From: Nitrososphaerota archaeon
Lineage (GTDB): Archaea > Thermoproteota > Nitrososphaeria_A > Caldarchaeales > Calditenuaceae
Assembly: GCA_009889515.1 (NCBI GenBank)
Contig: WUQR01000139.1
Coordinates: 62,001-126,000 of the forward strand
DNA: 64,000 nucleotides
Direction of reading: 5' to 3'
A program made the translations under genes and the position numbers. The notes beneath the pieces are model-generated. The model had not been told where the DNA came from, searched no databases, and saw nothing but the letters and a program-made list of their open reading frames with translations. Positions 38,367 through 63,985 of the stretch are shown here, piece by piece. Numbering within the stretch: the first letter of the stretch is position 1; each line of letters begins with the position of its first letter.

Positions 38367-38699
38367 TTATCTGGCTATCTCCTTTCTTATCTCCTCTATC
38401 CTTCTTGAGATTATTCCCTTTATGAGGTCGCAGACTTGGTATATTCTCTCGTCCTCGACGGTGTAGTAGCATTTGTTTCCCCGCCTCTTGGCAGTGATTA
38501 TGCGTTTGTCGCGGAGTATTTTGAGGTGTTGGGAGACTGTTGGTTGTGGGAGGCCTGTCTTCTCAGCGATCTCGGATACTGTGAGCTCGCCCTCTTTGAG
38601 GAGTTGTAGTATCTGTATTCTCTTGGGGTTTGTGAATATTGTGAAGAAGTCTGAGATCAGTTCGAGCTGGGCTGCCTCACGGGCTTTTGTTAGCGTCAT
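38367..38699 (-). CDS. ArsR-family winged-helix transcriptional regulator
   Basis: 110 residues. The recognition part is textbook ArsR: 'NPKRIQILQLLKEGELTVSEIAEKTGLPQPTVSQHLKIL' (24-62) and the wing 'DKRIITAKRRGNKCYY'. It has only two Cys, C77 in the wing and C90 in the last helix ('QVCDLIKG'), so a thiol-based sulfur sensor is possible, but the positions differ from the BigR/SqrR pair. It is the last gene of the DsrE2-TusA-SQR-like operon, overlapping the oxidoreductase by 23 bases, and so probably regulates it. A short palindrome upstream of the operon (40663-40670) is a candidate site. Confidence 0.88.
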   Translation of the reverse strand: MTLTKAREAAQLELISDFFTIFTNPKRIQILQLLKEGELTVSEIAEKTGLPQPTVSQHLKILRDKRIITAKRRGNKCYYTVEDERIYQVCDLIKGIISRRIEEIRKEIAR

Positions 38700-39894
38700 C
38701 TGCCACCACTTTAACCTCGTAGGGTGGGCCCAAATATATGTTGAATATGGGCTCCAGGGCCCCGCTCAGCATAGTCCAGTATAGCCTGTTGAAGAGCCTC
38801 TTCATGAGATACTTGGTCGTTGAGGGGTTTTGCCTCTCCGGCTGCTTGACGTATGTCCCGGAGACGAAGACTGCCTTGCGGCCACCCATCTCCAAGGGGC
38901 AATTTATCCTCCCGTTATAGAGGTATACTTTTCCTGTCCCATGTATCTGGGATGTTATCGACTCGGCCGTCGTTATCGCCTCTAGGTGTGCGACTACTCC
39001 TGATTTTGAGATGGGTATGTCCGTGGCGTCGCCTATCGCGTATGCATCGTCATGCCCCTTGATTTTCAGCGTATGCTTGTCAGTCGGTATCCACCCCTCC
39101 TCCCCTCCTATGCCCGAGGCTATCACGACATCAGCACCCCTGTGGGGCGGGATTGCTATTAGAAGATCATATGCCAGTTCCTCGCCCTCAAGCGAATAGA
39201 CCTTCTTGGCTGCAGGGTCGACATAGTCTATGTTGAAGAGTGTGTATGTAGTTATGCCCCTCTTCTCCATCTCGGGCTCCACAACGTCAGCTATCCCGTG
39301 GGCTGGGTAGGCTCTGGTGTAGGGTGTGGCATAGATGATCTCCACGTCTTTTCTGATGCTCCTCTTTCTCATCAGCTCGTCTATGAGGAAGACGGCCTCG
39401 ACCGGGGAGGGTGGACATTTGTGGGGTAGGGCCGGCAGCACAACTATCCTGCCGCGTCTGAAGGCTGAAAGTGCTTCCCAGACCCTCACAGCATCCTCCT
39501 GCGACCTGTGGAAGTTGAGAGATGCCTGGGCCAGCCCTGGTATAATCTCTGGGGCGGCTATGGAGCCGGTCGCGACAACGAGGTAATCATAGCCCATCTT
39601 CGCTCCGCCATCATATATTACGGCTCTATTTTCTAGGTCTATTCGCGAGACTGGACTCTTGAGTAACTTTACTTCTCGGCTCAGCAGTTGTGTTGGTGGT
39701 CTTCTGAAGGCTTTAGGGTTTGCTCCTCTGAATGCTATGTCGATGTTGCCGGGCTGGTATATGTGAGACTCAGACCCGTCGAACACCACTATCTCTAGGC
39801 GGCCGCCCCTCACCTCAGTCCTCAGCTTCTTGGCCAGCGCGTTGGCCAGTATTGTTCCTCCAGTGCCGGCCCCGATTATGGCTATCCGCCTCAT
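38677..39894 (-). CDS. Sulfide:quinone oxidoreductase-like FAD-dependent dehydrogenase
   Basis: 405 residues of the two-Rossmann pyridine-nucleotide-disulfide oxidoreductase fold. The FAD site is 'IAIIGAGTGGTILA' (4-17), the second FAD contact is 'YLVVATGS' and 'AYAIGDATDIPISK' binds the cofactor near 290-303. A Cys in 'HKCPPSPVEA' (about 158) matches the SQR Cys next to the flavin, and another in 'INCPLEMGG' (about 335) could be its disulfide partner. The C-terminal helices (about 365-405) are amphipathic, as in membrane-surface SQRs. It probably oxidises sulfide or a persulfide from TusA/DsrE2, passing electrons to quinone. Confidence 0.82.
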   Translation of the reverse strand: MRRIAIIGAGTGGTILANALAKKLRTEVRGGRLEIVVFDGSESHIYQPGNIDIAFRGANPKAFRRPPTQLLSREVKLLKSPVSRIDLENRAVIYDGGAKMGYDYLVVATGSIAAPEIIPGLAQASLNFHRSQEDAVRVWEALSAFRRGRIVVLPALPHKCPPSPVEAVFLIDELMRKRSIRKDVEIIYATPYTRAYPAHGIADVVEPEMEKRGITTYTLFNIDYVDPAAKKVYSLEGEELAYDLLIAIPPHRGADVVIASGIGGEEGWIPTDKHTLKIKGHDDAYAIGDATDIPISKSGVVAHLEAITTAESITSQIHGTGKVYLYNGRINCPLEMGGRKAVFVSGTYVKQPERQNPSTTKYLMKRLFNRLYWTMLSGALEPIFNIYLGPPYEVKVVADDANKSP

Positions 39895-39896
39895 AG

Positions 39897-40142
39897 CTAC
39901 CCTCCTTTAGAGGCCACGCGTATGACTATCTTGATGTAGCCCTGCTCCTCCCTCATCTCGACTATCTCGTTCTTGCTCTTCGCGGCCCAAGCGGCCACAT
40001 CGCTCTTGGCAGCTGGGTCAGTGGCAAGTAGCTCTATCTCGTCGCCAGGCTGCGCCTTCCTGTAAGCCTTGATGAGCTCTGTTATCGGCCCTGGGCAGAA
40101 GCTCCCCCTAGCATCTACTACGTGCCTCACTCCCCACTTCAC
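39897..40142 (-). CDS. TusA-family sulfurtransferase
   Basis: 81 residues. The active-site motif is 'DARGSFCPGP' (CPxP, Cys16), followed by the conserved 'PGDEIELLATDPAAKSDVAAWA'. TusA proteins carry sulfur as a persulfide between partners. The gene starts one base after the DsrE2 stop and ends two bases before the SQR-like gene, so the three are cotranslated. In dissimilatory sulfur oxidisers TusA passes sulfur to DsrE-type proteins, the likely partner here. Confidence 0.92.
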   Translation of the reverse strand: MKWGVRHVVDARGSFCPGPITELIKAYRKAQPGDEIELLATDPAAKSDVAAWAAKSKNEIVEMREEQGYIKIVIRVASKGG

Positions 40143-40143
40143 C

Positions 40144-40638
40144 TCATATGAAGATTACTTGGCCTCCCTCCGCGATGCTCAGGAATGTTGAGGCGCCGAC
40201 CACGTCCTCAACCTCTGGAATCAGGTCCGACTCCTTAATCCCCATAGCCGTCATGGTTGTCGAGCATGCGTGGAGCTTGACGCCCAAATCCTTCGCCTGC
40301 TTTATCAGCTCGTAGACCGTGGGCACCTTCAGCTTCCTAAACCTCTTAGCCATCATGCGTGTAACCATCCCACTCATCCCCGGAAGCACACCGAGTATCG
40401 ATGGAAGACCTAGTGACGGATTGCCAACAGCTGAGATCTTCAGATTATCGACTTTCCTCTTAACGACGGCATCGAGCCCCCAGAAAGTGAAGAACATATG
40501 CACCTCCATCCCCATAGCCGCGCCTGTGGTGGCCAGTATGAATGCCGGGTAGACCATGTCGAGGGAGCCTTTAGAGAGTATTATGCAGAGTTTCTGCGCA
40601 GTTTTTTGAGACTCTTTCTCACGAGTGGTTGTTTGCAT
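40144..40638 (-). CDS. DsrE2-type DsrE/F/H-like sulfur carrier protein
   Basis: About 164 residues from ATG 40638, which follows GAGGTG by six bases (GTG 40647 is the longer option). Family marks are 'LSKGSLDMVYPAFILATTGAAMGMEV', a hydrophobic helix pair, and the reactive Cys in 'LHACSTTMTAMGI' near residue 120. DsrE2 proteins bind persulfide or thiosulfonate sulfur and work with TusA. First gene of a four-gene operon (DsrE2-TusA-SQR-like-ArsR). The membrane-like hydrophobic segment suggests association with the membrane near the quinone-linked enzyme. Confidence 0.88.
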   Translation of the reverse strand: MQTTTREKESQKTAQKLCIILSKGSLDMVYPAFILATTGAAMGMEVHMFFTFWGLDAVVKRKVDNLKISAVGNPSLGLPSILGVLPGMSGMVTRMMAKRFRKLKVPTVYELIKQAKDLGVKLHACSTTMTAMGIKESDLIPEVEDVVGASTFLSIAEGGQVIFI

Positions 40639-40662
40639 CTTAACCACCTCGGTAAATTGAAT

Positions 40663-40670
40663 ATTCGAAT
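40663..40670. promoter_or_regulatory. Palindrome upstream of the sulfur operon
   Basis: ATTCGAAT is a perfect 8-base palindrome in an AT-rich stretch 25-32 bases upstream of the DsrE2 start, overlapping where the promoter must lie. ArsR regulators bind AT-rich inverted repeats, so it is a candidate operator. Confidence 0.3.
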
Positions 40671-40732
40671 TTTCTAATAATCCCTAGCCCACATGAGCAT
40701 GCAAAATTATAATTAATCATAGATCTATGTGC

Positions 40733-55947: not shown

Positions 55948-57093
55948 ATGAGTAGCGGCTTGCCGAGACCCGGTGTTCACTTCATGATGGGAAACTTCGC
56001 GTGTGTCGAGGCCGCCATACTAGCTGGGTGTAGGTTCTTCGCCGGATACCCAATCACCCCGTCCAGCGAGATTTTCGAGAGGGCTTGTGTAAGGTTTCCG
56101 CAGGTCGGCGGGATAGCTGTGGAGATGGAGGATGAGATGGCGAGTGTGGCCGCCCTTATAGGCGCGTCTTATGCCGGAGCCAAAGCCATGACCGCAACAT
56201 CCGGCCCAGGCTTCAGCCTGATGATGGAGAACATAGGGTTAGCATTCATAATGGAAGCGCCGATAGTCATTGTTAACGTTCAGAGGGCAGGGCCCAGCAC
56301 AGGAATACCAACACTGATAGGACAGGGCGATGTGATGCAGGCTAGGTGGGGCTCTCACGGAGACCTAGAGACGGTTGTCTACGCTCCCAGCAGCGTCCAA
56401 GAGTTCTTCGACCTAACCATTCGTGCCTTCAATACGGCGGAAAGGCTTCGCACACCAGTCATAGTCCTAGCCGACCAGCTGGTAGGCCTGATGTGGGAGA
56501 AAGTGGTCATCCCCCCGGCCGAAGAGATCGAGATAGTGGAGAGAAAGGTTATGGATCCGCGCCTCCTCTCCACTAGGCTGCCATTCGATTACTCCGCTGA
56601 CGTGAATCCAATGCCCATAGTGGGGACGGGCTGCCGTGTAAACATTGACAGCCTCACTCATGATGAGAGAGGCTATCCGACTACCTCTCAAGAGGTTTCT
56701 GATAGAATGCTGAGGTATCTTCTCGGCAAGATTAGGAATCACGCCCGTGAGCTCTGGATGTATAAGGAGTTCATGACGGATGATGCTGAGGTTGTTGTGG
56801 TTGCTTATGGGTCTACTGCTAGGTCGGCCTTGAATGCCGTTAAGCAGGCTCGCTCACGTGGGATTAAGGCCGGGCTGCTACAGCTCATCACTATATGGCC
56901 CTTCCCAAGCGACGTGATTGAGAGGCTGAGCCAGCGCGTCAACGTCCTCGTGGTCCCTGAGATAAACTTCGGCCAGCTCGTCCATCCTGTCAGAGAGCAT
57001 GCTAAATGCCCTGTCATAGAGGTTAACTGGGCGCCGGGCAGCCTGATAGAGCCTAATGTCATCGTGGATGCGGTGGAGGTGGCTGCTGCGTGA
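55948..57093 (+). CDS. korA: 2-oxoacid:ferredoxin oxidoreductase, alpha subunit
   Basis: 381 residues. Family marks: 'GCRFFAGYPITPSSEIFE' (28-45), 'MTATSGPGFSLMMENIG' (about 81-97), 'IGQGDVMQARWGSHGD' and a C-terminal Rossmann-like part with 'YGSTARSALNAV' and 'EINFGQLVHPVREH'. It forms the pyrimidine half of the thiamine site with the beta subunit. Its stop codon overlaps the next start (GTGA). Substrate-side residues look like the KorA/2-oxoglutarate branch, but this is a visual judgement. Confidence 0.93.
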   Translation: MSSGLPRPGVHFMMGNFACVEAAILAGCRFFAGYPITPSSEIFERACVRFPQVGGIAVEMEDEMASVAALIGASYAGAKAMTATSGPGFSLMMENIGLAFIMEAPIVIVNVQRAGPSTGIPTLIGQGDVMQARWGSHGDLETVVYAPSSVQEFFDLTIRAFNTAERLRTPVIVLADQLVGLMWEKVVIPPAEEIEIVERKVMDPRLLSTRLPFDYSADVNPMPIVGTGCRVNIDSLTHDERGYPTTSQEVSDRMLRYLLGKIRNHARELWMYKEFMTDDAEVVVVAYGSTARSALNAVKQARSRGIKAGLLQLITIWPFPSDVIERLSQRVNVLVVPEINFGQLVHPVREHAKCPVIEVNWAPGSLIEPNVIVDAVEVAAA

Positions 57094-57944
57094 CCCAAGT
57101 GGTTAAGGCTCAACGCCATCCTAGAGACAGGCTGCTGCGGAGTGAGAGGCTTCCACACATCTGGTGCCCGGGATGCGGCATCGGCATAGTCATGGCCGCC
57201 TACGCGGACGCCATCGAGGCATCGGGTATTCCTCCTGAGAAGCATGTCTGCATTTCAGGTATAGGCTGTACTGGGAGGGTTTCAGGCTACATGCATCTCG
57301 ACTCGTTCCATACGACTCATGGTCGTGCCATAGCATTTGCCACAGGCCTATCTCTCGTGAGGCCCGACTTGGAGGTCACAGTCATCTCAGGCGACGGAGA
57401 CATCTGCACCATAGGCGGGAATCATCTGATACACGCTGCTAGGAGGAACGTTGACATCAACGTGATAATGGTCAACAACTTCAACTATGGTATGACGGGC
57501 GGCCAGCACGGTGGAACTACTCCACTCGGGGCAAAGACATACACTTCGCCCTACGGCAACTTTGAAAACCCATTCAACATACCTTACCTAGTGGCCGCTG
57601 CTGGCGCCTCCTTCGTTGCTAGGTGGACAACCCTGCACGTGCGGCAGCTGATCAACGCGATAAAGCGTATGATGAGTGTGGAGGGATTCGCATTTATTGA
57701 GGTCATATCTCCCTGTCCGCCCACCTTCGGCGAGTTCAACAACTTCCCCGAGGCACTCGACATGATGGAGTATTTCAGAAAACATTCGGTGGTAGACCAT
57801 AATGCCGATCTAAGTAAGATAGACATACGTCTTCAGGGCGAGCCGCTGGTTGTTGGAAACTTCGTGGATAGGAGGAGACCGAGTTACCAGGAGCTTATCC
57901 AGGAGACCATCAGGAGGGCCTCTGGGAGGGGGGAGGGCATTTGA
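57090..57944 (+). CDS. korB: 2-oxoacid:ferredoxin oxidoreductase, beta subunit
   Basis: 284 residues. The thiamine motif is 'GDGDICTIGGNHLIHAARRNVDINVIMVNN' in form (GDG at about 111, NN at about 138; quoted here only as endpoints GDGD and MVNN). The proximal [4Fe-4S] Cys are in 'WCPGCGIG' and 'CISGIGCTGR', with a later Cys in 'ISPCPPTF'. This subunit catalyses decarboxylation and first electron capture. GTG start overlaps the alpha stop by four bases and the gamma start overlaps its own stop (TTGA), so subunits are made in step. Confidence 0.94.
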   Translation: MTQVVKAQRHPRDRLLRSERLPHIWCPGCGIGIVMAAYADAIEASGIPPEKHVCISGIGCTGRVSGYMHLDSFHTTHGRAIAFATGLSLVRPDLEVTVISGDGDICTIGGNHLIHAARRNVDINVIMVNNFNYGMTGGQHGGTTPLGAKTYTSPYGNFENPFNIPYLVAAAGASFVARWTTLHVRQLINAIKRMMSVEGFAFIEVISPCPPTFGEFNNFPEALDMMEYFRKHSVVDHNADLSKIDIRLQGEPLVVGNFVDRRRPSYQELIQETIRRASGRGEGI

Positions 57945-58498
57945 GATACGAGGTCAGGATAACCGGGTTGGGAGGTCAAGGGGCCATAACGGCTGGCCAC
58001 ATACTTGGGAGGGCCGCGGCAATATACGACGGCAAGGAGGCAGTGGTGACTGAGGGCTACAGCCCATACATAACAGGGGGCTGGTCTAGAGCCGACGTAA
58101 TAATATCGGACGAGACCATAGACTACCCTCTCATAACCAAGCTAGACGTGCTAGCCACAATGTATGACGAGGGCTTCGTACAAAACCTCAGACACGTTAA
58201 GCGCGGCGGAGTAATAGTAACCGTGAAAGAACTCGTTAAACACGATTCGCAGGACCACAAGGTCTTGCCGGTGCCAGCCATTGAGGTGGCAGAGAGTCTA
58301 GGAAGAAAGATAGTCGCAAATATCGTGATACTTGGTGCCATAGTTGCTGTCCTGGGCACGCCGTCCTTGGAGTCGGTGGAAAAGGCGCTGGCCGATAGGT
58401 TCCCAAAGGCGGCTGACCTTAACCGCAAGGCAGTCCGGCAGGGCTACAGCATAGCATCCGAGCTGCTGGCCAGTATAGGTGTTTCTGGGAGGAGGTGA
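57941..58498 (+). CDS. korC: 2-oxoacid:ferredoxin oxidoreductase, gamma subunit
   Basis: 185 residues: 'EVRITGLGGQGAITAGHILGRAA' at the N-terminus and 'GYSPYITGGWSRADVIIS', as in all gamma subunits, followed by 'IVANIVILGAIVAVLGTPSLESVEKAL'. It completes the CoA-binding side of the enzyme. TTG start in a TTGA overlap with beta; the end overlaps the HdrA-type gene (GTGA), which ties the oxidoreductase to the Hdr genes translationally. Confidence 0.94.
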   Translation: MRYEVRITGLGGQGAITAGHILGRAAAIYDGKEAVVTEGYSPYITGGWSRADVIISDETIDYPLITKLDVLATMYDEGFVQNLRHVKRGGVIVTVKELVKHDSQDHKVLPVPAIEVAESLGRKIVANIVILGAIVAVLGTPSLESVEKALADRFPKAADLNRKAVRQGYSIASELLASIGVSGRR

Positions 58499-61400
58499 GG
58501 GGGTTGGCGGACGCTGTACTGGTTATAGGTGGTGGGATTGCGGGGGTTCAGGCATCCCTCGACCTAGCCAAGGCGGGTGCCAAGGTCTACCTCGTTGAGA
58601 AAAGCCCCGTGATAGGGGGTAGGATGGCGGCTCTAGACAAGAACTTCCCCACCATGGACTGCTCGATCTGCATTGAAGCGCCCAAGCTGAGCGAGGTGAT
58701 GCAGAACAAGAACATTAAGGTCCTAACCTTGGCCGAGGTTGTCGAGGTAAGAGGCGAGGCTGGGAACTTCCATGTAAAAGTTGTCCAGAAGCCCCGCTTT
58801 GTCACCGACGAGTGTACGAGGTGCGGCGACTGCGTACCCGCCTGCCCAGTCATACTGAAGAACGAGTTTGACGTAGGGATGGGTGCGAGGAAGGCCATCT
58901 ACCTCCCCTTCGACCAGGCCGAGCCAGGAACATACGTAATAGACATTGAGCACTGCTTGAACAAGCCGCCCAACTACCTACCCTGTAACAGGTGCGTCGA
59001 GGCATGCGGGCCAAAATGCATAGACTTCGAGATGAGGGAGAAGATCCATGAACTGAATGTAGGCGCAATAATAGTTGCGGCTGGCTCGGACCTCTTTGAC
59101 GCCTCGCTAATCCCTGAGTTCGGCTATGGAAGACACCCCGACATCCTCACGGCGATGGAGCTCGAGAGACTGCTGCAGTCGAGCGGCCCTTCAAGGGGTG
59201 AGGTCATAAAGCCCAGCAACCACCGCCACCCGGAGAGAGTAGCATTCATCCTATGCGTTGGTGCTCGTGATAAAAGGTTCTACAGCTTCTGCAGCAGGGT
59301 CTGCTGCATGTACAGTATTAAGGAGGCGCTGCAGCTTGTCGACCATGGAATCAAAGACGTCACAATATTCTACATGGACATAAGGGCTTATGGAAAGGGC
59401 TTCGACGAGATGTTTGAGAGGGCGAAGAAGAGTGGTGTCAGATTTATACGGAGCAGGCCTGGAAGAGTTATCCCCAACGGCGAAGGCATAGACGTAGTCT
59501 ATGAGGACACGACCACAGGAGAGCTGCGGAGAGAAACCTTCGACATGGTTGTCCTTTCAACGGCCCTCGTTCCATCAGAAGAATTAAACAGACTGGCTAA
59601 AACCCTTGGGATAGAGGTGGGAGAAGACGGCTTCATCAAATCATACGAGATTGACGGAGACTTCGTCGGAACATCGAGGAGAGGGATATACGTCTGTGGA
59701 TGTGCGAGCGGTCCCAAGGACATTCCCGACAGTGTTACAGAGGCGGGTGCGGCCGCTGCGAAGGCGCTAACTCATCTGACCTCAAGGTCCGTAGAACCCG
59801 AAATTTTCGAGGAAACGATAGACGCCCTGGGGGAGCCCCGCGTTGGGGTCTTCATCTGCCACTGCGGATCTAATATAGCTGGGGTAGTCGATATAAAAAC
59901 TGCCGTTGAACAGTCCAAGAAAATACCCTATGTAGTGCATGTAGAGGACCAGAGGTTCTCATGCTCTGGAGCTGGTACGAAGCATATCGAGAATGTGATA
60001 AGGGAGAAGAGGCTCAACAGGATTGTTATAGCTGCCTGTTCGCCGAAGACCCATAGCCCAACCTTCATGAGGGCCTGTGCAAGGGCAGGGCTTAACCCAT
60101 ACCTCATTGAGATGGCTAACATACGCAACCTCAACTCTTGGGTTCACAAGAACCAACCCGAAGAGGCAACTAGGAAAGCCATAGACCTAATCTCGATGGC
60201 GGTCGCCAAAGTGGTCCGACAAAACCCAATGACCAAGCTGTTCACCCCCGTCCAGCAAAAGGCCCTAGTAATCGGGGGAGGTGTGGCTGGGATAACCGCC
60301 GCCACCGCCCTTGCAGAGATGGGGTTCGAGACACATCTAGTTGAGAAGGAACACGAGCTAGGCGGCCTCCTCAGACATCTTAAAGAAATTGCCCCCTCCG
60401 GCATAGATGCACAGCGCTTCCTGCAGTGGAAGATAAAACAGCTTGAGAGGTCTGGTGCCAAGGTCCACTTGGGCACAGAGGTGACAGAAGTAACAGGGTT
60501 CGTCGGCAACTACCACGTAAAACTATCCAACGGCGAGGAACTAGACGTAGGCGCCATAATCTTAGCCACAGGCGGTAAAGTCCACGAGCCAAACTGGCCT
60601 ATAATCGGAACTGACAGGCCAAAAGTTGTGACACTGCTTGAATACGAGATGGACGGCGTTCCAAAGGATGCTAGTAACATAGTCTTTATCGGATGTGTGG
60701 GTTCTAGGAACCTGAATAGGGGGTGCTCAAGATATTGCTGCCAGACCATTACCTACCACGCCCTCAAGCTTAGGAAGAGCGGAAAGAACGTCTCAGTTAT
60801 TGTCAAGGACGTGAGGACCTATGGGCGTGGGGCTGAGGAGCTTTACAGGAAAGCCTGCGAAGAAGGTGTAAGATTCATCAGGGTTGGAACGGAAAAGCCG
60901 ATTGAAGACCTTGTCCAAATAGGCGAGGGCGGCATAACGGTGCGAGACATCACAATTGGAGAGACACTAAATATACCAGCAGACTACGTCGTGCTGGCTA
61001 CCGCCATAGATCCTCCGGGAGAGATTGCGGCGGCTCAGCAGCTCAGAGTCGCCAAGGACTCGGAGGGATTCTTCCTCGAACTCCATCCAAAGCTGGGCCC
61101 TGTTGAATCAATAACACAGGGCGTCTTTCTCGCAGGGGTCGCCCAAGGACCCAAAGATGTTAGGGAGAGCATCTCGCAGGGATTGGCCGCAGCCGCAAAG
61201 GCAGCCGCACTCCTCACATCACCACAGCTCGAGAAAGAGCCCTTCATCCCAGTCATAGACCCGCAAAAATGCACTAAGTGCATGAGGTGCGCGCAGGTCT
61301 GCCCATATGGTGCGATCAGAGGCGAACTGAGAAAATGGATAGAGATCATTCCGGGCCTCTGCCAAGGATGTGGTGCATGTGTTGCCGAGTGTAACGTCGA

Positions 61401-61881
61401 GGGGGCTATAACGATGCCTGGGTTCACAGACGAGCAAATAATGGCGCAAATAGACGCGGCGCTAGCTGAGAACCCGGAGGAGAAGGCAATAGTCTTCGCC
61501 TGTAACTGGTGCAGCTACGCAGGAGCAGACCTAGCAGGTATCCTCAAGATACAGTACCCGCCTACATGCAGGGTCATACGGACAATGTGCTCTGCACGCG
61601 TTTCGCAGAAGCTAATTTTGCACGCATTCAAGAAGGGTGCCGGGGCCGTCTTCGTAACAGGCTGTTGGCCACAGGACTGCCACTACAACTACGCCAACCT
61701 CAACACTAAGAGACGATACGAGCAATGGCTCAAAATAATACAGGCCCGCAACATAGATCCGAAGAGGCTCCAGCTACACTGGATAAGCGCCGCAGAGGCC
61801 AAGAGGTTTGCAGAGAAGATGACTGAGGCCCACGAGGTCGTGATGAGTCTGAAAAAGGCGAAGATGGAGGTGAGCGGCTAA
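58495..61881 (+). CDS. HdrA-HdrA'-MvhD fusion (heterodisulfide reductase subunit A type)
   Basis: 1128 residues, three units. Unit 1 (1-430): FAD site 'VIGGGIAGVQASLDL' near 6-20, 'DKNFPTMDCSICIEAPKLSEV', then inserted iron-sulfur motifs 'CTRCGDCVPACP' (107-118) and 'CNRCVEACGPKC' (from 164), and 'CSRVCC'. Unit 2 (about 450-975): the HdrA N-terminal motif 'FICHCGSNIAGVVD' (about 452), a second FAD site near 591-600, 'RGCSRYCCQTI', and C-terminal ferredoxin motifs 'CTKCMRCAQVCP' and 'CQGCGACVAECN'. Unit 3 (about 1000-1128): an MvhD domain ('FACNWCSYAGAD', 'GCWPQDCHYNYAN'). Two flavins and at least four cubanes suggest electron bifurcation. The layout also recalls QmoA+QmoB joined. GTG 58495 or TTG 58504 (six bases after GGAGGTGA). 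Confidence 0.9.
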   Translation: MRGLADAVLVIGGGIAGVQASLDLAKAGAKVYLVEKSPVIGGRMAALDKNFPTMDCSICIEAPKLSEVMQNKNIKVLTLAEVVEVRGEAGNFHVKVVQKPRFVTDECTRCGDCVPACPVILKNEFDVGMGARKAIYLPFDQAEPGTYVIDIEHCLNKPPNYLPCNRCVEACGPKCIDFEMREKIHELNVGAIIVAAGSDLFDASLIPEFGYGRHPDILTAMELERLLQSSGPSRGEVIKPSNHRHPERVAFILCVGARDKRFYSFCSRVCCMYSIKEALQLVDHGIKDVTIFYMDIRAYGKGFDEMFERAKKSGVRFIRSRPGRVIPNGEGIDVVYEDTTTGELRRETFDMVVLSTALVPSEELNRLAKTLGIEVGEDGFIKSYEIDGDFVGTSRRGIYVCGCASGPKDIPDSVTEAGAAAAKALTHLTSRSVEPEIFEETIDALGEPRVGVFICHCGSNIAGVVDIKTAVEQSKKIPYVVHVEDQRFSCSGAGTKHIENVIREKRLNRIVIAACSPKTHSPTFMRACARAGLNPYLIEMANIRNLNSWVHKNQPEEATRKAIDLISMAVAKVVRQNPMTKLFTPVQQKALVIGGGVAGITAATALAEMGFETHLVEKEHELGGLLRHLKEIAPSGIDAQRFLQWKIKQLERSGAKVHLGTEVTEVTGFVGNYHVKLSNGEELDVGAIILATGGKVHEPNWPIIGTDRPKVVTLLEYEMDGVPKDASNIVFIGCVGSRNLNRGCSRYCCQTITYHALKLRKSGKNVSVIVKDVRTYGRGAEELYRKACEEGVRFIRVGTEKPIEDLVQIGEGGITVRDITIGETLNIPADYVVLATAIDPPGEIAAAQQLRVAKDSEGFFLELHPKLGPVESITQGVFLAGVAQGPKDVRESISQGLAAAAKAAALLTSPQLEKEPFIPVIDPQKCTKCMRCAQVCPYGAIRGELRKWIEIIPGLCQGCGACVAECNVEGAITMPGFTDEQIMAQIDAALAENPEEKAIVFACNWCSYAGADLAGILKIQYPPTCRVIRTMCSARVSQKLILHAFKKGAGAVFVTGCWPQDCHYNYANLNTKRRYEQWLKIIQARNIDPKRLQLHWISAAEAKRFAEKMTEAHEVVMSLKKAKMEVSG

Positions 61882-63021
61882 ATGTACCAACTACTATCAG
61901 ACCTCGTCAAAGACAGGGATCTAGCCGAAAACATTGCGGCCTGCTTCCAGTGCGGAGCATGCACGGCCGCCTGCCCCCTCAACATATTTGACGGCCCCAA
62001 ACTAAGCCCAAGACAGCTTCTCCGAAGGATACAGCTAGGCCTCCCAGTAAACATCGACCCATACCTCTGCATGATGTGCAGGGCATGCGAATCAGTATGC
62101 CCGCGAAATGTTAAAGTCACAAGAGTAATTCAAGAGTTGAGGAGAATCTGGTTCAGGAGCAACAGAACCCCCGCACAACTCACTCAAGCCCTCTGGAGGG
62201 TCTATGAGGATGGAAACCCGTGGGGCTACCCCTCCCGGACAAGAGGCCAATGGCTCGACAAGCTGGGCTCAAACATAGCGAAGAAGAGAAGCGATACGCT
62301 CCTCTACATCGGATGCATCTCATCTTACGATATACGACTCCAGAGAATAGCATCCGCGATAGTGAAGCTCCTTCTTAAGGCAGGAGTCGATTTCACAGTC
62401 CTCGGAGACGAAGAGAGGTGTTGCGGCGACCCCGTCTTTCACGCCGGTGAGACAGACTTCCTTGAAGAACTGGTCAGCGAGAACATAGCCAAGTTCAACT
62501 CTCTAGGTATCAGGAGGATAATAGCCCTCTCCCCCCACTGCTACATCATGTTCCGGGACATCTATCCCAAGTATGGAGGAGAGTATGAGGTCCACCACTA
62601 CACAGAGTATCTCGCAGAGCTCATGGACGCGGGGAAACTATCACTCAATGCACAGCTAGATGCGAGAGTAACCTATCACGACCCATGCTATCTAGGTAGA
62701 TACGCAAAGATATACGAACAGCCTCGAAGACTGATAGAGAGTGTCAAACAACTTTCATTCTCAGAAATGAGCCTCTCAAAAGAACTATCCCTCTGCTGCG
62801 GAGGAGGAGGGGGGCGGATACTGTTGGAGTCAAAACCCGAGGAGAGACCATCAAACATGAGGGTAAAACAAGCAGTTGAAACAGGGTCAGAAATCTTGGT
62901 AACCTCGTGCCCCTACTGCATAATAAACTTCGAAGACTCTGCAAAGGTTCAGAAAGCACCCCTTAGGGTAATGGATGTTGCGGAGCTTCTAGAAGCTGCG
63001 GTAGGTGGTCAAGATGGGTGA
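61882..63021 (+). CDS. HdrC-HdrB fusion (HdrD-like, CCG domain protein)
   Basis: 379 residues. Residues 1-90 are an HdrC-type ferredoxin with 'CFQCGACTAACPLN' (about 21-34) and 'CMMCRACESVCPRN' (about 61-74). The rest is HdrB-like with two CCG units. The second is complete: Cys in 'DPCYLGRY', 35 residues, CC in 'LCCGGGG', then 'SCPYC'. The first has 'GCISSYD', 'RCCGDP' and 'SPHCY', i.e. it lacks one Cys of the CxxC, so probably one noncubane cluster only. This part would reduce a disulfide, quinone-like or other acceptor. ATG directly follows the HdrA-type stop (TAAATG). Confidence 0.9.
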   Translation: MYQLLSDLVKDRDLAENIAACFQCGACTAACPLNIFDGPKLSPRQLLRRIQLGLPVNIDPYLCMMCRACESVCPRNVKVTRVIQELRRIWFRSNRTPAQLTQALWRVYEDGNPWGYPSRTRGQWLDKLGSNIAKKRSDTLLYIGCISSYDIRLQRIASAIVKLLLKAGVDFTVLGDEERCCGDPVFHAGETDFLEELVSENIAKFNSLGIRRIIALSPHCYIMFRDIYPKYGGEYEVHHYTEYLAELMDAGKLSLNAQLDARVTYHDPCYLGRYAKIYEQPRRLIESVKQLSFSEMSLSKELSLCCGGGGGRILLESKPEERPSNMRVKQAVETGSEILVTSCPYCIINFEDSAKVQKAPLRVMDVAELLEAAVGGQDG

Positions 63022-63985
63022 GATATGGTCTTTCGTGGAAGTGGGGCCCGAAGGGATTGAGGATGTATCATTGGAGATAATCGGTAAAGCGGCTGAACTT
63101 GGGGCTCAGAGTAATACGAGAACTGCAGCCGTCCTAACAGGCTGGGGAATGGAAGAAATCGTCAAAGAAGTCTCAAGATACCCCGTCGACAAAGTGTACT
63201 ATGTTGAACACAGTGAACTGGCTGTCTATGACCCGGCGAAACACGCCATGGCCCTACACCAGCTGGTTGAGAGGGAGAAACCCGAGACAGTGCTTTTCGG
63301 AGCAACCTATAATGGGGTCGACATAGCCGCTAGGCTGGCCGTTAGGACTGGGGCAGGACTAATAGCCCATGTAACATACCTCGGCATAGACCCCTCAGAC
63401 GGGAGACTAATAGGACATGTACCGGGCTTTGGCGGGAGCATCGTAGCTGTCTGCAAATTCAGGCCAGGCGTCCTACAGATTGCGACGGTGAGGCCGGGAG
63501 TTTTCGAGAAGCCGAGCCCAACAGGGCGTGAGGCGGAGATCCAAAGGTTTAGCCCTGATCTCCATCCGACAGATGGGTGGAAAATAGTTGAGAGGCATGT
63601 GGCAAAGGTGGTGGACATTACGAGGGCTGAAAAAGTTGTTGTGGCAGGGATGGGGACCGGAGGAGACCTCACCCTCATCAAGACGCTCGCCGAGAAAATG
63701 GGTGCACAACTGGCGGTAACGAGGCCCCTAGCAGACCTAGGCCTTGCACCCAGAGACGTTCAAGTAGGCTCCACAGGCGTCAGCCTAAGATCTAAGATTG
63801 CTTTAATCCTAGGAGTTAGTGGAGCGTCACACTTCGTCTCAGGTATCCGCGATGTGAAGACAGTAATCTCGGTCAACATCGACAGAAACGCCCCGATATT
63901 CCAGTTCTCCGACTACTGCGTGGAAGCTGACCTATTCAAACTAGTTCCAAGGATTGTTGAGGAGCTTGAGAAGGAGGGTGGATGA
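63014..63985 (+). CDS. etfA: Electron transfer flavoprotein, alpha subunit
   Basis: About 323 residues from ATG 63014, eight bases inside the HdrCB gene (ATGGGTGA) and preceded by GGTGG; GTG 63005 is the longer choice. The N-terminal domain ('GEIWSFVEVGPEGIEDVSLEIIGKAAELG', 'LFGATYNGVDIAARLAVRTGAGL') and the FAD domain ('DVQVGSTGVSLRSKIALILGVSGASHF', 'APIFQFSDYCVEADLF') are complete. Where most EtfA proteins have 'SGA-x-QH', this one has 'SGASHF': Gln becomes His and the FAD-contacting His becomes Phe. That should alter the flavin potential. No added ferredoxin is fused. Confidence 0.92.
   Translation: MGEIWSFVEVGPEGIEDVSLEIIGKAAELGAQSNTRTAAVLTGWGMEEIVKEVSRYPVDKVYYVEHSELAVYDPAKHAMALHQLVEREKPETVLFGATYNGVDIAARLAVRTGAGLIAHVTYLGIDPSDGRLIGHVPGFGGSIVAVCKFRPGVLQIATVRPGVFEKPSPTGREAEIQRFSPDLHPTDGWKIVERHVAKVVDITRAEKVVVAGMGTGGDLTLIKTLAEKMGAQLAVTRPLADLGLAPRDVQVGSTGVSLRSKIALILGVSGASHFVSGIRDVKTVISVNIDRNAPIFQFSDYCVEADLFKLVPRIVEELEKEGG

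Follow-up and report, generated by a model that had tools for sequence, protein, structure and literature searches.

The window analysed here is a stretch of 64,000 nucleotides of archaeal DNA (bases 62001-126000 of a 1.26-Mb contig; genome of 2.11 Mb, 95.5% complete). Its ORF listing contains four minus-strand open reading frames (ORFs) that form one operon: DsrE2, TusA, sulfide:quinone oxidoreductase (SQR) and ArsR (Table 1). The packing is tight, with a spacing of 1 base between DsrE2 and TusA (40143), a spacing of 2 bases between TusA and SQR (39895-39896) and a 23-base overlap of SQR and ArsR (38677-38699). The ORF coordinates reproduce exactly the layout described in an earlier reading of this DNA (hereafter the original prediction), and the Pfam domains of the members that it proposed (DrsE_2, TusA, Pyr_redox_2 and HTH_5) all score above cutoff. 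The operon is of an ordinary kind, already known across archaea and bacteria, and here belongs to an uncultured (hot-spring) archaeal lineage. What it adds to current knowledge is a conserved DNA site that is probably the binding place of the operon's own regulator.

Table 1 Features of the operon, in window coordinates
Feature	Coordinates	Strand	Basis
DsrE2 (DsrE2B-like) sulfur carrier	40144..40638	-	ORF opens at GTG 40647 (ORF 40144-40647); PF13686
TusA sulfur carrier	39897..40142	-	PF01206; C16
SQR, human SQOR-like, type III-related	38677..39894	-	Pyr_redox_2; human SQOR match; C160, C332
ArsR-family winged-helix regulator, overlapping the SQR end	38367..38699	-	HTH_5; NF033788
Probable operator GAANATTCGAATNTTC, in the interval separating DsrE2 from its upstream neighbour	40659..40674	-	Conservation in own genus

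Sulfur carriers and SQR of the operon

Both carriers retain their active-site cysteine. In TusA (PF01206, 76 bits; cutoff 28.6) this is C16, kept by all 25 aligned relatives, and in DsrE2 (PF13686, 132.7 bits; cutoff 25) it is C128, kept by all 24. Each protein misses an NCBI equivalog model (NF001423, 34 bits versus a cutoff of 78 for TusA; NF047629, 119.5 bits versus 210 for DsrE2). By sequence, the nearest solved structure to DsrE2 is 2qs7, named as Sulfolobus SSO1126 DsrE2B in PMC4175335 (here and below, the cited papers are represented by partial texts). The DsrE2B group suits the protein better than DsrE2A, a subgroup with two strictly conserved cysteines, the second of which (C21 here) is present in just 9 of the 24 relatives. 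The true start of DsrE2 is likelier the ATG at 40638, directly after GAGGTGG, than the listed GTG at 40647. Because purified DsrE2B of Metallosphaera cuprina proved unreactive towards every sulfur compound tried and accepted no thiosulfate from TusA, according to the available text of PMC4175335, the DsrE2 of this operon may, by analogy, be something other than a simple carrier.

The flavoprotein (Pyr_redox_2, 61.1 bits; cutoff 26.1) is an SQR, because it has two invariant cysteines and because human SQOR ranks first by both sequence and fold. The same evidence upholds the SQR-like, quinone-linked enzyme of the original prediction and excludes an NADH dehydrogenase, the identity that it had named as its own undoing. 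Among solved structures, human SQOR gives the closest sequence match (1e-33), and its Cys201 and Cys379 align with C160 and C332 (human numbering derived from the sequence alignment, with a 40-residue offset). Both cysteines are kept by all the aligned relatives, which represent 23 of the 30 loci L004-L033 (L005 was omitted for an in-frame stop, and L016, L023, L025, L026, L029 and L033 are likewise outside the alignment). Fold comparison of the structure model (pLDDT 92.7) places human SQOR first (TM 0.84), with bacterial NDH-2 at about 0.73. The C-terminal helix, which aligns with that of SQOR, has K365, Y372 and W373 invariant in the 23 aligned sequences. We label the enzyme 'type III-related' without filing it under NF049943, the NCBI model for the selenoprotein subtype of type III SQR, because its score of 288.6 bits is under the cutoff of 525. 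The A. ambivalens-type SQR (3h8i, 3h8l) was rejected as nearest relative, its match being weak and partial. The stop in L005, from a genome of the same genus (G092), is an in-frame TAG at L005:2197-2199 where relatives have Tyr, reflecting either a sequencing error or a broken gene.

Linkage across archaea and bacteria

Among 30 loci fetched by SQR similarity (L004-L033), TusA lies beside SQR in 29, DsrE2 in 28 and ArsR in 19. In the best 80 of 587 SQR relatives, chosen by SQR similarity alone, TusA is found within 2.5 kb of SQR at 77 loci, DsrE2 at 72 and ArsR at 16, the two sets not being independent in that 7 of the 80 loci appear identical to loci of the first. Two of the three loci without TusA (L055 and L068) start almost at a contig edge, and DsrE2-TusA-SQR are collinear in 58/80 of this best-80 set. 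The 364,783 bases near SQR in these loci contain 80 TusA and 97 DsrE2 HMM matches (the latter count including genes split into two pieces), versus 2 and 3, respectively, in the 617,176 bases farther away; the association of both carriers with SQR is far beyond chance. Thermoplasmata, Nitrososphaeria, Archaeoglobus, Bacillota, Proteobacteria and Chloroflexota are among the groups named in the record titles of the SQR relatives. The linkage is ancient and broadly distributed, extending from archaea to Proteobacteria, and among the relatives examined it is the norm. As a separate observation, 41 of the 80 loci (L034-L113) encode, directly after SQR and in the same orientation, a member of one further protein family (about 200 aa).

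The pairing of TusA/DsrE carriers with an SQR, which the original prediction had implied to be odd, is thus commonplace among relatives, and it is already in print for M. cuprina and Methylacidiphilum. For M. cuprina, the proximity of genes for TusA, an SQR and a DsrE-type protein was pointed out in 2014; Mcup_1722-1724 (TusA, putative SQR and DsrE4) resembles the operon described here in that an archaeal TusA adjoins SQR and a DsrE-family protein, but differs in that the DsrE protein, of group DsrE4, sits downstream of SQR (PMC4175335). Four of the 30 loci (L030-L033), probably from Sulfolobales given their resemblance to the M. cuprina arrangement, have the order TusA-SQR-DsrE in 3/4 cases and an ArsR match in 0/4. 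In Methylacidiphilum fumariolicum SolV, MFUM_v2_0219-0221 form an operon of the same three protein types (type III SQR, TusA and DsrE2), which is up 1.7-1.8-fold with H2S in cells that oxidise H2S to S0; this operon is bacterial, however, and its description in the available text of PMC10205796 includes neither an ArsR gene nor an operator. In Bacillus, dsrE, tusA, sqr and pdo form a cluster controlled by a sensor of sulfane sulfur (PMC9918477). In the yrkD-to-pdo cluster of Bacillus licheniformis and the cst operon of Staphylococcus aureus, SQR and TusA/DsrE-type carriers are governed by a repressor that senses sulfane sulfur, but this is a CstR-type repressor (YrkD) and comes with persulfide dioxygenase, rhodanese and TauE, all absent from the four-gene operon here (PMC9918477, partial text). 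The presence of sqr genes in Aigarchaeota has been reported as a sign of sulfide oxidation (PMC6053391).

A conserved palindrome and the ArsR regulator

The 8-mer ATTCGAAT at 40663-40670, proposed in the original prediction as a possible operator, is by itself no commoner in the window than chance (1 found versus 0.94 expected). Relatives nevertheless retain both its position and its flanks to a high degree. It forms the centre of a 16-bp palindrome, GAANATTCGAATNTTC, 27 bases ahead of the listed DsrE2 start, with 14/14 fixed positions matched in 6/6 genomes of the same genus. Scanning of the own genome returned no further GAANATTCGAATNTTC sites at 0-1 mismatch beyond the operon's own, and sites at 2 mismatches were no more numerous than with a backward-pattern control. 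On 19 loci outside the genus, the genus-derived motif scores 9-12 at the 13 with ArsR and 8-9 at the 6 without (Mann-Whitney p = 4e-4, kinship uncorrected), the diverged sites reading by eye as ATTAG-N3-ATTCGAAT-N3-CTAAT. Conservation, a single copy in the genome and association with ArsR all strengthen the operator proposal.

The same association was followed on an SQR tree (n = 100; 7 duplicate loci and L005, L031 and L033 left out), in which 75 rows have both traits, the site and ArsR. A site score of at least 10 is reached by 23/24 rows with ArsR and 10/51 without, and a score of at least 11 by 17/24 and 1/51, respectively. A kinship-aware test reduces these to just 5 independent pairs: at threshold 10, a mean of 4.5 agree and 0 oppose (sign test p 0.0625), and at threshold 11, where most pairs do not differ, a mean of 2.3 agree, 0 oppose and 2.7 tie. 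The independent pairs are thus few, four Nitrososphaeria loci that carry ArsR show no more than weak sites (score 10, shuffle p 0.08-0.2) and one locus (L017) has ArsR yet a site score of just 9; for these reasons, we regard the link between ArsR and the palindrome, as judged from sequence comparison, as good but not proven. Separately, three Bacillus/Mesobacillus loci without an ArsR gene (L089, L098 and L107) have an ATTCGA-containing site (score 9-10) at a comparable position, some 31-35 bases ahead of the DsrE2 match, which perhaps serves another regulator. A literature search, covering mostly papers outside subscription, turned up no account of this archaeal operon's ArsR gene or of its operator.

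The regulator itself (HTH_5, 68 bits; cutoff 22) satisfies the ArsR/SmtB superfamily HTH model NF033788 (89.7 bits; cutoff 55) and holds exactly two cysteines, C77 and C90, both of which the original prediction had put forward as possible sulfur sensors. The proposal remains plausible for C90, present in 15/15 proteins of an alignment covering 15 of the 19 ArsR loci, and falls for C77 as a general sensor, since that residue occurs in 4/15, all from the own genus. A cysteine at the F19-equivalent position is found in 9/15, and sister families have that cysteine plus C90. SqrR, BigR and sHdrR are also ArsR-family regulators, often near sqr, but share Cys50 and Cys116, 66 residues apart (PMC12423496), whereas the two cysteines here are spaced by 13. 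In line with this, the protein scores 50.3 bits with the BigR model NF040642, under its cutoff of 155. It is possible that this ArsR senses a metal.

Proposed sulfide oxidation and alternative readings

From the genes, their conserved cysteines and linkage, and the palindrome with its ArsR association, we infer a scheme in which the locus is rather likely a sulfide-oxidation operon, probably switched by sulfide. ArsR would repress the operon from the palindrome just upstream of DsrE2 and would release the DNA on sensing a sulfur species, probably via C90, expression being switched on, probably, by sulfide or a sulfide product. SQR would oxidise toxic H2S using FAD and the C160/C332 pair, with electrons passing to the membrane quinone and from there probably to a haem-copper oxidase (three such genes score above cutoff in the genome), and the sulfane sulfur would remain as persulfide on C332. 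The C16 thiolate of TusA would then take this sulfur, a protein acceptor thereby replacing glutathione, and hand it to C128 of DsrE2, which would hold or deliver it.

The two conserved cysteines of SQR are consistent with its established mechanism, whereby the enzyme turns sulfide into a persulfide and then passes the sulfur on. In human SQOR, the two cysteines hold a trisulfide, and the Cys379 persulfide is attacked by, and donated to, the acceptor (PMC11039317); by alignment, the residue attacked there is the equivalent of C332. This agrees with the second option of the original prediction, that the operon makes persulfide from sulfide, and goes against its title and first option, under which TusA and DsrE2 would deliver sulfane sulfur to a flavoprotein acting as an oxidase that processes persulfide, or else running reductively. 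Gene order alone leaves the direction unfixed, but the two-cysteine site and the fold are as in known sulfide-oxidising SQRs, and the parallel sulfide-induced operon of Methylacidiphilum belongs to sulfide-oxidising cells (PMC10205796), so that delivery from the carriers to the flavoprotein appears highly improbable.

Since SQR can use small-molecule acceptors, TusA is not required as an acceptor. The enzyme might pass its sulfur to polysulfide, sulfite or low-molecular thiols, with TusA and DsrE2 merely co-regulated and putting sulfane sulfur to a separate use, for example the thiolation of cofactors or tRNA. Consistent with this, human SQOR works with small acceptors (PMC11039317), H2S ends as S0 in Methylacidiphilum (PMC10205796) and DsrE2B of M. 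cuprina is inert in vitro (PMC4175335). We nevertheless consider it unlikely that the carriers are mere bystanders, as the fixed DsrE2-TusA-SQR order, kept at 58/80 loci from archaea to Proteobacteria, suggests direct cooperation, and a second above-cutoff TusA elsewhere in the genome is available for housekeeping.

Within the preferred reading, transfer from SQR to TusA, we tentatively raise a broader possibility. The SQRs of this kind may constitute a clade, spanning archaea and bacteria, with TusA as a dedicated protein acceptor taking persulfide straight from the enzyme, and the Caldarchaeales operon may in addition be under a new type of ArsR sulfur sensor, with an invariant C90 and a lineage-shifting partner cysteine, at a 16-24-bp TTCGAA-centred palindrome. 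Glutathione is not known from most archaea. If the proposal were true, cells without this thiol could oxidise sulfide with the sulfur staying protein-bound. Sulfur removal from SQR in such organisms is a practical question, for which the operon and its many relatives give a matched set of enzyme, acceptor and carrier. The conserved operator, for its part, makes a specific prediction, confined to a single site, for a repressor that responds to sulfur in archaea.

Destination of the sulfur and the genomic setting

In most cases, clusters of tusA and dsrE2 come together with hdr or dsr genes (PMC4175335, partial text), and in this classical role the carriers would feed an sHdr or Dsr pathway elsewhere, SQR being a mere entry point. 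A NIR_SIR profile search of the genome gave zero matches, leaving DsrAB of the Dsr system without a counterpart there, and CCG domains occur in three ORFs only, none of them in an sHdr-like setting. The first lies within a cluster of oxoacid oxidoreductase, HdrA-FlpD and ETF genes; the other two are long proteins that by reading resemble a membrane Fe-S oxidoreductase and a lactate-utilisation-type protein. Neither the shdr (HdrB1/HdrB2) nor the dsr genes that the original prediction had proposed to look for were found in this genome, which at 95.5% complete may be missing a contig, and the same holds for an sHdr locus using these proteins, which would have told against that prediction. We thus give very little weight to sHdr or Dsr as the destination.

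Elsewhere, the genome encodes two rhodanese ORFs; its TusA domains are found at three places, two above cutoff, and its DrsE_2 proteins number one. NF040641, which we take to be the persulfide dioxygenase model, has a single match in the genome at 53.5 bits versus a cutoff of 625, and the same model gives below-cutoff matches in 13/14 control genomes, so that a match of this kind says little. The sulfur would most likely become polysulfide or elemental sulfur, or be drawn into biosynthesis.

Two loci outside the operon were also observed in passing. In the window, 55948-63985 on the plus strand is a packed cluster of three 2-oxoacid:ferredoxin oxidoreductase subunits, an HdrA-like protein (1128 aa, with a C-terminal FlpD domain), an HdrB-type protein (379 aa, with two CCG domains) and ETF alpha, possibly encoding an electron-bifurcating complex. 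Elsewhere in the genome (C139:321032-322580; L125:7033-8581), a tandem rhodanese gene precedes a fusion of glycine-cleavage-H-like (GCV_H) and TusA-like domains, the TusA part of which is below the Pfam cutoff. The fusion was rejected as an obligate partner of the operon: two genomes (G098 and G176) have it with no SQR match, and family f2 has the operon with just partial fusion matches. It has a near full-length match in 19/44 genomes of the order, with a rhodanese in the fetched stretch at 15/19 of these loci. C8, C144 and C160 are invariant in 14/14 aligned proteins and the position that we take to be that of the usual lipoyl lysine is not conserved. The fusion is a possible unusual sulfur-relay protein.
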